Virus record (IMG/VR): IMGVR_UViG_3300042569_000113 | Coordinates: 1-29,495 of that record | DNA from: a virus | Length of the DNA stretch: 29,495 nucleotides | Strand: one strand, 5' to 3' | Shown: in pieces, positions 11,574 to 14,480 of the stretch | Layout of the letters: every line of letters begins with the position of its first letter | Position numbering within the stretch: the stretch's first letter is position 1 | The notes under the pieces: model-generated | What the model saw: the letters and a program-made list of their open reading frames with translations, nothing else | Told to the model about the DNA's origin: nothing | Database searches by the model: none | Program-made: the position numbers and the translations under genes

Positions 11574-12001
11574 AGGACAGACTGCAAGTAATACACGAAC
11601 TTATAGACCACTTTGACTTAACCAAAGTAAACAGACAGCGTTTTTACATATACAAGCGTTACTACTTAATGAATGAGTTACGTGCCTTACAGCTTAACCT
11701 TATGCAAATAGGGGAAATTTTCGGTAAAAACCACGCTACTATTATTCACGGCTTACGTAACCACGCCGACTTAATGAGTTACCAAGACCCAGAATATATT
11801 GCAGAAACAAACATACTACGCCAAGAACTAGAAGGGAGTATTTACGTACCTATCGAACGCAAAAGAAAAATAAAAGGCTACGACTTGCGCCAAGACATAC
11901 TAGACGCTACCAATTTTAGGGACGTTAAACGCATACAAAGACGGATAAAAATAGGTTTGTACGAAAAATATAAAGACCAGACGCAACCTTTTGTAGAATA
12001 A
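11570..12001 (+). CDS. DnaA domain IV-like DNA-binding protein
   Basis: A 143-residue protein whose residues 47-65, IGEIFGKNHATIIHGLRNH, closely follow the DnaA domain IV signature (IGxxFGxRxHTTVxHAxxxI), the helix-turn-helix that reads DnaA boxes. The AAA+ ATPase domains of DnaA are missing, so it is a stand-alone DNA-binding module, as seen in several Bacteroidota phages. It may recruit the phage origin, compete with host DnaA, or regulate replication genes. A basic C-terminal half (ERKRKIKGYDLRQDILDATN, RDVKRIQRRIKIG) could add nonspecific DNA binding. Its stop is six bases ahead of the promoter driving the replication leader. Confidence 0.7.
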   Translation: MKDRLQVIHELIDHFDLTKVNRQRFYIYKRYYLMNELRALQLNLMQIGEIFGKNHATIIHGLRNHADLMSYQDPEYIAETNILRQELEGSIYVPIERKRKIKGYDLRQDILDATNFRDVKRIQRRIKIGLYEKYKDQTQPFVE

Positions 12002-12006
12002 AACGT

Positions 12007-12014
12007 TATATTTG
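12007..12014 (+). promoter_or_regulatory. Promoter -7 box (TATATTTG) for the replication leader
   Basis: TATATTTG at 12007-12014 is a perfect TAnnTTTG box. The best -33 candidate, TTG at 11991-11993, gives a spacer of only 13 bases, so the upstream element is weak or atypical. Transcription would begin about 12018, at the first hairpin of the leader. Confidence 0.55.
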
Positions 12015-12017
12015 TAC

Positions 12018-12112
12018 GGGTAGGCAGACCCACGTAAAACATTATTTGAACCCTTTTCGGTTAGTAGCACTGCCTTGCGAACGCTGAAAGGGGTTTTTTA
12101 TTTTAAGGCAGT
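12018..12112 (+). ncRNA. Structured leader / attenuator or small RNA ahead of the replication operon
   Basis: The leader opens with a small hairpin (GGGT 12018-12021, loop AGGCAG 12022-12027, ACCC 12028-12031). A 12-bp terminator hairpin follows, whose 23-base loop contains ACTGCCTT (12069-12076). CTGCCT there is complementary to the AGGCAG loop, allowing a kissing interaction, and the full ACTGCCTT is complementary to AAGGCAGT (12105-12112), just before the ATG at 12116. The two pairings are mutually exclusive. If terminated, the product would be a small RNA of about 80 bases. Function is an inference from pairing. Confidence 0.5.
12049..12099 (+). terminator. Terminator-like hairpin inside the replication leader
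   Basis: Bases 12049-12060 pair with 12084-12095 in a 12-bp stem with two G-T pairs and a 23-base loop, followed by a T run. It stands between the TATATTTG promoter and the gene it would drive, so it is an attenuator or the end of a small RNA, and may also stop read-through from 12001. Confidence 0.75.
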
Positions 12113-12115
12113 AAA

Positions 12116-12721
12116 ATGAGCGGTTGGATTAAATTACACAAAACACTTAAGGACTGGGAATGGTACGACGACCACAACGCAACGCGTTTGCTAGTTCACT
12201 TACTTTTATCGGTAAACTACGAAGACAAGGAGTGGAAAGGGCAAACAATTAAAGCTGGTTCAATGGTTACCAGTTGGGAAAACTTGGCTAAAGAAATAGG
12301 CCTTTCGGTCAAGCAAACTCGTACAGCTATGGACAAGCTAGAAACGTCCAAAGAAGTGGCACGCTACGCGACAAACAAATGGCAAGCTGTAACCCTTGTA
12401 AAATGGGAAAAGTTACAAGTAGAATGTACTACAAAGGGCAAGCAAATGGGCAAACAAAGGGCAACAACTAAAGAATATAAAGAAATAAAGAATATAAATA
12501 TACCTTCGTATAGCGAGTTTTTATCTTTTGCTTTGGAAAAGAAACCACTACTAAACCAACAAGACTTAAAACTAAAATACGAAAGCTGGATAGAGAATGA
12601 ATGGTGTACAAATAAAGGCGGTAAAATGCAACCTATTTTAAAATGGAAGGCCACGCTTTTAAATACACTCCCATACATACCAGAAATTAAGATAACTGCA
12701 CCAGCACAAATTTGGGAATAA
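12116..12721 (+). CDS. Replication initiator / helicase-loader-like winged-helix protein
   Basis: A 201-residue protein with an N-terminal winged-helix pattern (MSGWIKLHKTLKDWEWYDD, then RLLVHLLLSVNY, AGSMVTSWENLAKEIGLSVK and TRTAMDKLE) that is common among phage replication proteins of the DnaD/O-protein sort. The C-terminal part (residues 130-200, ILKWKATLLNTLPYIPE) could contact the helicase. It directly precedes the DnaB-like gene, the usual initiator-helicase order, and its translation may be controlled by the leader RNA whose AAGGCAGT lies four bases before the ATG. Origin location is not proven; many such proteins bind iterons inside their own gene. Confidence 0.65.
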   Translation: MSGWIKLHKTLKDWEWYDDHNATRLLVHLLLSVNYEDKEWKGQTIKAGSMVTSWENLAKEIGLSVKQTRTAMDKLETSKEVARYATNKWQAVTLVKWEKLQVECTTKGKQMGKQRATTKEYKEIKNINIPSYSEFLSFALEKKPLLNQQDLKLKYESWIENEWCTNKGGKMQPILKWKATLLNTLPYIPEIKITAPAQIWE

Positions 12722-13684
12722 ATGTACACTAGACTACACAATTTAAACGCCGAAATGTTCGAAATACGCCTACAAAAAGACGTAAAAGGAAAAGGCGTAG
12801 GCTGGGACTGGGAAATGTTACCCTTTACAATTAAAGAAGGTTGTACAACTTATATAGGTTCAGCACCCGCAAGCGGTAAAACAGAACTTTGGTTTGAGTT
12901 TCTTATAAACCTTTCGTGTTTACACGGCTGGCGACACGCTATATTTAGCCCAGAAACTGGTAGCGCAGCTGAAATATACGCAGAACTATGCTACAAGTAC
13001 ATAGGTAAGCCATACGTACAAGGCCAAAACTCTATGACTAACGGCGAACAAGTAAGCGCTGAAATGTTTGTAAACGAACACTTCATAGTAATAGACCCTA
13101 TTGACGAGGATTTAACTATAACTAAATTTTACAGCCTTATAGACGAAATAGAGCAAAAAGAAGGTATTAAAATACATACCACTACTATAGACCCGTGGAA
13201 TGAGTTAAGCGAAGAATACATAGGTAGCGACTTGGGCCGTGAAGACAAGTATTTAAGCCGTATTCTAGGGCTAGTTAGGAAGAACGCACGTAAAACTGGA
13301 CGCCACAACTGCGTAATTAACCACGTTCGCGACCAACCTATGGTAACTGGTAAAACAATAGCTGGCACAGACGTTAGTTATTTCCCTATACCTAGCGCTC
13401 GCGACTTTGCGGGTGGCCAAGTATGGTTTAGAAAAGGTTTAAGCGTGTTAATACCGTGGCGACCACCTTACGGACTAGCTAACGGCGACGGAACGGGTGC
13501 AGAAAAAAACGAAGTACATTTAAAAGTAGCAAAGAGTAAACCAAAAGGCGTAAGTAAAAACGGAATTTATAAAATGTTTCTAGACGTAGACCGATACCAG
13601 TACTATATGCTAGACTACAAAGGCAACCGAGTTTACGCAAATAGGGGCTCATATTACAAACCAGAACAACAAACACGTTTTTAA
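12722..13684 (+). CDS. DnaB/Twinkle-like RecA-fold replicative helicase domain
   Basis: A 320-residue protein with Walker A GSAPASGKT (residues 46-54), a SPETG block (76-80), and hydrophobic-TTTIDPWNE (about 153-161) as Walker B. NHVRDQP and the FAGGQVWFRKGL region fit later RecA-fold helicase motifs. The N-terminal primase or helical domain of full-length DnaB is absent, so it is a compact helicase core, probably loaded by the preceding initiator. It starts immediately after that gene's stop. ATPase assignment is firm; helicase function is inferred from motif order and neighbours. Confidence 0.7.
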   Translation: MYTRLHNLNAEMFEIRLQKDVKGKGVGWDWEMLPFTIKEGCTTYIGSAPASGKTELWFEFLINLSCLHGWRHAIFSPETGSAAEIYAELCYKYIGKPYVQGQNSMTNGEQVSAEMFVNEHFIVIDPIDEDLTITKFYSLIDEIEQKEGIKIHTTTIDPWNELSEEYIGSDLGREDKYLSRILGLVRKNARKTGRHNCVINHVRDQPMVTGKTIAGTDVSYFPIPSARDFAGGQVWFRKGLSVLIPWRPPYGLANGDGTGAEKNEVHLKVAKSKPKGVSKNGIYKMFLDVDRYQYYMLDYKGNRVYANRGSYYKPEQQTRF

Positions 13685-13685
13685 A

Positions 13686-14480
13686 ATGAAAAAAATAGCT
13701 TGGTTTTCGTGTGGCGTTACCAGCGCCGTAGCTTGTAAGATAGCTATAGAACAATACGGACTAGACAATGTAGAACTTTACTATATGGTTATAGATAGCG
13801 CGCACCCAGATAACGAACGCTTTATATCAGACTGCGAACGTTGGCTAGGTAAAAAAGTTAATAAGGTAAGAAGCGAAAAGTATATAGACCAGTTCGACGT
13901 AATAGAAAAAACAAAATATATTAACGGTCCAGCTGGCGCTAGATGCACGCTAGAATTAAAAAAGAATGTACGCTATAAAGTAGAAAAGGAAATAGACTAC
14001 GACGGACAAATATTTGGCTTTGAGTTTTCGCGTAAGGAAATTAATAGGGCTATTCGTTTTGCAGAACAACACCCGAAAGCGAAGCCATTATTTCCACTTA
14101 TTGAGCGCAAGCTATCAAAAGAACAATGCGCCGAACTTTTGCTAATAAACGGCATACAACTACCTAAAATGTATTTATTAGGCTTTCACAATAACAACTG
14201 TATAGGTTGTGTAAAAGGTGGTAAAGGTTACTGGAACAAAATACGTAAAGAGTTTCCAGAATATTACAAACGAATGGCAGACCTAGAAATACAAACAGGC
14301 GCTAGTTGCATTAAAGGTAAATTTCTGGCAGACCTTAAACCAAACGAAGGAAAACACGAACCGCCAATATTGCCAGACTGTGGTACATTTTGCGAAATAG
14401 AGTTCGCAGACCTTATAGACCCAAACACGGAACGAATATACAGCGGACAAGTAAACATAAAACAACTAAAACTATTTTAA
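13686..14480 (+). CDS. PAPS reductase-like PP-loop (adenine nucleotide alpha hydrolase) protein
   Basis: A 264-residue protein starting MKKIAWFSCGVTSAVACKIA; FSCGVTSA is a PP-loop (SGGxTSA-like) that binds the phosphates of ATP or PAPS. A second block, GFHNNNCIGCVKGGKGYWNKI, with closely spaced Cys, is typical of phage members of the PAPS reductase/DndC-like superfamily, and PDCGTFCEIEF adds two Cys near the end, so an iron-sulfur or metal site is possible. In phages these enzymes have been linked to nucleotide or sulfur chemistry without settled roles. Candidate roles are modification of a base, tRNA or nucleotide. It sits in the replication operon between helicase and NinG-like genes. Confidence 0.65.
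   Translation: MKKIAWFSCGVTSAVACKIAIEQYGLDNVELYYMVIDSAHPDNERFISDCERWLGKKVNKVRSEKYIDQFDVIEKTKYINGPAGARCTLELKKNVRYKVEKEIDYDGQIFGFEFSRKEINRAIRFAEQHPKAKPLFPLIERKLSKEQCAELLLINGIQLPKMYLLGFHNNNCIGCVKGGKGYWNKIRKEFPEYYKRMADLEIQTGASCIKGKFLADLKPNEGKHEPPILPDCGTFCEIEFADLIDPNTERIYSGQVNIKQLKLF

Follow-up and report, generated by a model that had tools for sequence, protein, structure and literature searches.

A structured leader RNA heads the replication operons of many Bacteroidota phages, and two of its hairpin loops, here called A and B, change together: across the sequences compared, their complementarity is kept through about 48 alleles. We regard this leader, with moderate confidence, as an attenuator of the replication operon that is controlled by loop-loop pairing, would release an RNA of ~82 nt, and would gate read-through into the genes behind it. 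The element described here in most detail lies in the window, that is, the whole stretch of DNA analyzed, a 29,495-base IMG/VR virus record. Judged from its predicted products, the gene order of the window (DnaA-C-like ORF, DnaD-like loader, helicase/primase-like protein, PAPS reductase-like protein, NinG, exonuclease, and terminase) is typical for a Bacteroidota tailed phage. The parts of the element and the two genes behind it are as follows.

12007 to 12014, + strand: TATATTTG, a Bacteroidota-type −7 box (TAnnTTTG), assigned from sequence.
12018 to 12031, + strand: hairpin H1, GGGT-AGGCAG-ACCC, with loop A at 12022 to 12027; from folding and relatives.
12032 to 12048, + strand: linker with the conserved UAAAAC-AUUAUU; from near-invariant columns in alignment A3.
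12049 to 12095, + strand: terminator hairpin H2, with a 12-bp stem (12049-12060/12084-12095); from folding and relatives.
12094 to 12099, + strand: U-run of the intrinsic terminator; from sequence and the fold of the terminated RNA, and kept in relatives.
12099 to 12118, + strand: hairpin H3, an A/U stem with loop C, AGGCAG (12106 to 12111), and the start codon in its 3' arm; from folding.
12116 to 12721, + strand: first gene of the replication operon, DnaD-like helicase loader or replisome organizer (PHROG 2514, E value 7e-15).
12722 to 13684, + strand: second gene of the operon, P-loop helicase/primase-like (PHROG 5482, E value 2e-35; PHROG 239, primase/helicase).

The sequence-only reading of the window had placed the parts it names correctly. 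Besides the box and H1, it had described the 12-bp terminator hairpin with ACTGCCTT in its loop (12069 to 12076), followed by AAGGCAGT (12105 to 12112) next to the ATG. Six T's lie at 12094 to 12099, and the ATG is at 12116. Within H2, a bulged-G-like internal loop, AGUA/GAA (12063-12066/12079-12081), is followed by an apical stem (12067-12069/12076-12078) that carries loop B, CUGCCU (12070 to 12075). Homologues of the first gene product are annotated as DnaD-like loaders. A phosphoadenosine phosphosulfate reductase-like gene (13686 to 14480; PHROG 424) also lies inside the replication region.

In almost all relatives the box stands 8 to 12 nt ahead of H1. No TTG was found at the usual −33 distance upstream of the box in the window, so that the promoter is assigned there from the box by itself. 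About 20 nt upstream of the box, a GCAAC/AACAAA motif recurs in many relatives (11970 to 12006 in the window; equivalents in loci L020 to L111), possibly as part of a phage-specific or activator-dependent promoter. Between the predicted promoter and the first codon, a G+C-rich hairpin and a U-run form the layout of an intrinsic terminator, and the predicted product is an RNA of ~82 nt reaching from near 12018 to the 3' end of the U-run. Taken as a single sequence, the window would not exceed chance, since its leader folds no better than shuffled versions (z-score −0.94; 34 of 200 shuffles equally stable) and AAGGCAG is not more frequent in it than expected; the finding thus depends on relatives. 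No further copy of the element was found within the window.

A query of viral contigs with the DnaD-like protein returned 53 loci, about 10 of which have the same layout directly ahead of the gene, with loop letters that differ yet match each other (A/B/C sets AGGCAG/CTGCCT/AGGCAG, GTTGCAG/CTGCAAC/GTTGCAG, and GTGCAG/CTGCAC/GTGCAG). A pattern search with promoter and H1 placed the element also ahead of two unrelated genes, whose products begin with MRQAFNFY and MSKELPFF. A custom detector, which looks for the box, a loop A able to pair with the terminator loop, and the U-run, found it in most of the remaining loci, often one small gene farther upstream. Further protein queries raised the total to at least 134 distinct elements with about 48 A alleles, found with a detector that requires A/B complementarity, and the last two queries gave the element in 129 of 156 loci; the loci are partly redundant, and both figures are counts of sequences and not of independent events. 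The layout is constant, running from the TATATTTG box through H1 with loop A, the linker, the terminator H2 with loop B, and the U-run to an ORF start that almost always lies a few to ~30 nt beyond the terminator. The replication-type genes behind it, encoding the DnaD-like, MRQAFNFY, and MSKELPFF proteins, are unrelated to each other. Whole records usually hold one element; one record and the cultured phage FCV-1 hold two.

Two main forms can be told apart. In type 1, the form of the window, H1 has a stem of ~4 bp and a loop of 6 to 7 nt that constitutes A, and B forms the loop of H2, above an apical stem of 3 bp and an invariant AGUA...GAA internal loop that resembles a bulged-G (sarcin-ricin) module. 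In type 2, the stem of H1 measures ~5 bp and its 14-nt loop comprises A plus a segment ending in AUA, while H2 has a UGA/GGA-type internal loop, a 4-bp apical stem, and B within a 10-nt loop. A rarer variant (L121 to L125, around 2650 to 2780) carries an A of 10 to 12 nt at the extreme 5' end and has no H1; its carriers include related phages with wholly different A/B (GCAAGAGATCAA versus GGGAAGAAAT), and an integrase (PF00589) occurs in two of their records. Because some phages lack H1 in this way or have a weaker box, the fixed part of the element comprises only A, the terminator, and B. Some copies lie beside endonuclease genes (L034:5792-5876, L084:361, L085:131, L086:5006, L021:2361, and L142:6370), with type 1 elements immediately ahead of genes for NUMOD4/HNH-type homing endonucleases and, in some cases, type 2 elements ahead of GIY-YIG or NUMOD4 genes; the leader may travel with homing endonucleases or regulate them. 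At gathering score, Rfam gave no match in the window and only tRNAs in 20 relatives, and weak matches to DUF3800-I and RT-14 stayed below threshold. Querying cultured phages at the DNA level with the leader of the window returned no match, and the literature yielded no described Bacteroidota phage leader RNA. The RNA element belongs to no Rfam family and looks undescribed.

Covariation over related phages, on which the sequence-only reading had made its case depend, is present and strong. Alignment A1 has 95.8% of its cells paired, with a covariation of 0.70 compared with 0.24 in shuffles (A:B included); the corresponding values are 91.2% and 0.68 for type 1 (A5) and 98.2% and 0.83 for type 2 (A4), both of which were fitted to their own models and lean towards them. 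None of 500 shuffles reached the values of A1, A4, or A5, and sliding the structure along the alignment lowered pairing to 30 to 58%. Changes on both sides occur at all 4 stem pairs of H1, which is 97.8% paired among relatives, and at all 12 pairs of the lower stem of H2. The MAFFT alignment A3 was out of register (the structure slid by −1 scored better), so the type 1 stem statistics rest on A5. The proposed kissing-loop design, with an intrinsic terminator and a product of ~82 nt before the replication genes, is in this respect strongly supported as a conserved, covarying RNA.

Since the detector requires A/B complementarity, it cannot itself prove the A:B pairing. Covariance models R1 and R2, whose E values are rough, contain only the nested stems and leave A:B out. 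On loci of the unrelated MRQAFNFY gene family they gave 33 and 27 matches; 46 of these are further non-redundant elements, and in 46 of 46 A and B are complementary for 6 nt or more. Combinations of A and B from different alleles reach 6 nt in 18 to 40% of cases, a background that is raised because alleles share letters. All 29 type 2 elements have A/B matches of at least 7 nt, and the mean match is 7.9 nt for type 2 (20 alleles) and 6.2 nt for type 1 (9 alleles), compared with 5.4 and 4.9 nt in mismatched combinations. In a 14-sequence type 2 alignment, two rows of which are out of register, 6 of the 8 pairs in the A:B helix have changed on both sides. Of 51 first-round model matches, two (L120 and L143) seemed to lack the A/B match, which was traced to shifted model coordinates; both have matches of 8 nt. 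As isolated duplexes, A:B pairings are predicted at −8 to −17 kcal/mol. In Flavobacterium phage FCOV-S2 (L147, 1790 to 1915; box TAAGTTTG), changes in A and B cut the match from 8 to 7 nt, which offers a natural comparison with FCV-1.

Phages whose neighboring genes are near-identical carry different alleles and unrelated phages share them, so that the element moves as a cassette. L008 is 87 to 88% identical to L002 and L004 upstream and 97 to 98% downstream, and only 61% within the element (alleles GCTCTCACA and GGCTGGAC); L002 and L015, conversely, share 99% of the element, 53% upstream, and 88% downstream. Among 68 helicase-anchored loci, 54 pairs have helicases that are 99.5% identical or more, and 14 of these pairs differ in allele; 76 pairs with less than 80% have their allele in common. 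In several pairs the first replication gene was swapped along with the element, similarity breaking at or just after the promoter box. FCV-1 and FCL-2 have 88% identical upstream DNA and different elements and first genes. The alignment of L199 and L202 is continuous through the same gene and the element alone differs. By sequence comparison, allele exchange is recombination, and selection may have favored the diversification.

These exchanges bear on two other explanations of the element. The first, which we consider rather unlikely, is that the loop-loop contact is purely structural in cis, shaping a compact RNA of ~82 nt or the terminator, with letters that drift or ride along in module recombination and neither switching nor trans action. 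A and B do share one molecule, element and first gene do move together in several pairs, and outside C no second A or B target was found near downstream starts. However, A/B was replaced wholesale between flanks of 87 to 98% identity with the first gene unchanged (L008 versus L002/L004; L199 versus L202), the lower terminator stem stays while A/B is replaced, and C copies A over five alleles. Far less credible is that the element provides an origin or a primer RNA, or serves the cognate replication protein as a DNA operator. Although it adjoins the gene of the replication initiator and the two are often swapped together, one allele stands before non-homologous genes, one gene stands behind different alleles, and copies also precede homing-endonuclease genes; moreover, the intrinsic terminator, the bulged-G module, and the display of the letters in loops point to RNA.

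The third loop, C, is a copy of A beside the ATG; of 44 distinct type 1 elements, 27 have it. It tracks A through five alleles (AGGCAG, GTTGCAG, GTGCAG, AAGCAG, and ATGCAG), and among 528 cross-checks only 3 gave another allele at this place; a natural recombinant (L026) combines the A/B of one allele with the C of another. C is confined to the branch of the window, namely, type 1 elements directly before a replication gene, and no C-like copies were found downstream of type 2 elements. It forms the hexaloop of the A/U hairpin H3, which mostly has the start codon within its 3' arm and whose stem reaches at least 5 bp in 16 to 17 of 24 distinct cases, compared with 5% with shuffled flanks. H3 is not universal, because the GTTGCAG allele forms only 2 bp and L232 and L273 deviate. 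The sequence-only reading held that loop B can pair with the start region over eight bases, and with either A or that region but not both. The eight-base match exists in the window and is special to alleles like its own, the conserved B:C match being 6 to 7 nt, and C in turn sits in the loop of H3; the exclusive choice holds up in the C-bearing subclade and does not extend to the relatives without C, which are the majority.

From this layout we infer how the leader would act. RNA polymerase would start just before H1, stop at H2 by default, and release the ~82-nt RNA. The U-run lies so near the start codon that there is hardly room for a second promoter; the replication genes would hence depend on read-through, which argues for an attenuator. 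The A:B contact (6 to 9 nt) would be the conserved control contact that decides the fate of H2. In the branch of the window, B could contact C instead, in competition with A:B, and B:C would lock the start codon by reinforcing the weak hairpin H3, whereas A:B would leave it open, so that the contact might gate translation of the replication genes as well. Structure near the start codon is known to lower or tune translation in Flavobacterium johnsoniae (PMC6847099). Several points argue against the attenuator: within one molecule, A:B is favored by proximity and need not switch anything; most elements lack C; some variants lack H1 or have a weaker box; and it is not obvious why virulent phages should need long-term repression.

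As A and B lie in one RNA, a transcript made from one genome could in principle also target the leader being transcribed from a second genome with a matching allele; the diversification and swapping of alleles would then be accounted for. It is plausible, and we take the idea seriously while rating it below even, that the RNA acts in trans in an allele-specific manner for superinfection exclusion or copy control, with the terminated RNA of a resident genome forcing termination, or blocking translation, on any incoming genome that has its allele. Such action would be a special form of the attenuator and does not exclude it. The order A-B-C equals that of seqA-CI-seqC in P4 (PMC4825925), predicted cross-pairing between alleles is weak in most combinations, and the sharing of alleles by unrelated phages, with different alleles in near-identical ones, fits as well. 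On the other side, A and B already serve as each other's partner in cis, C is missing from type 2, and the carriers show little sign of lysogeny. The latter are Bacteroidota phages, largely metagenomic contigs, and include the cultured Flavobacterium phages FL-1, FCV-1, V186, and FCL-2 and Cellulophaga phage phi18:3. No PF00589 integrase was found in 19 sampled records with type 1 or type 2 elements, the window included, which represent ~30-kb phages and may be fragments. R1 and R2 found no element in 296 bacterial genomes each, a search of limited sensitivity without positive control in which the phylum, Bacteroidota, was deduced from T9SS tails. Relatives of the DnaD-like gene number one among bacterial genomes compared with 72 in viral contigs. 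With no lysogenic state evident from the 19 records and the 296 genomes, element-bearing phages appear mainly virulent. Only tentatively would we propose a hitherto undescribed RNA self-recognition system of mainly virulent Bacteroidota phages, in which every phage bears one of dozens of loop alleles, its terminated leader RNA would recognize leaders of that allele by loop-loop pairing and so shut down the replication genes, and the resulting heteroimmunity-like groups would be traded as cassettes.

Whichever way it acts, this structured RNA is common, diversifies fast, and occupies the replication control point of a large phage group that includes isolated Flavobacterium phages. With loops that vary yet always match, it lends itself to a direct test of pairing specificity by simple swaps, and it bears on the question of whether RNA serves virulent phages to distinguish kin from rivals or only to set the timing of replication.

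Among RNA families, the 3' hairpin of RT-14 (RF02921), with its UAGUA/GAA module and UAAAA linker, resembles H2 of type 1. This likeness, seen at 12036 to 12095 in the window and at L033:695-830, may reflect a distant relative or a shared motif; the scores of 26.3 and 28.0 bits fall short of the 48.1 bits set for gathering, the fit does not extend to the 5' half, and a search of bacterial genomes with the RT-14 model, run without positive control, was empty. In ColE1 (RNA I/II), pT181, and pIP501, loop-loop pairing controls replication and loop changes yield new specificities. Their antisense RNAs are transcribed from the opposite strand, in contrast to the present element, where both pairing partners lie in one transcript. 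The C4 antisense RNA of P1 and P7, which is processed and belongs to temperate enterophages, is like the element a small same-strand leader RNA complementary to a translation start region just downstream; here, however, a second complement (A) lies inside the same RNA. The primary paper on C4 is cited in PMC12197685. Neither C4 nor any other Rfam 15 family matched the element at curated gathering score.

The closest functional parallel is the CI RNA of P4, which pairs with the upstream seqA and the downstream seqC and ends transcription of the replication genes (PMC4825925). In the present element, unlike in P4, A, B, and C are hairpin loops, B being the loop of the terminator itself, and the RNA has its own terminator, whereas CI RNA is processed from a longer transcript. 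Most members also lack C, their loop letters are highly diversified, and the temperate or plasmid-like carrier of P4 has no counterpart among the 19 possibly fragmentary records without PF00589. Because of this missing temperate context and the lack of C in type 2, we do not file the element as a P4-type immunity RNA. What it has in common with CI is a same-strand leader RNA ahead of replication genes, as in the window, a central sequence complementary to an upstream copy and, in type 1 with C, to a downstream copy, and control linked to premature termination, which the intrinsic terminator predicts here likewise.
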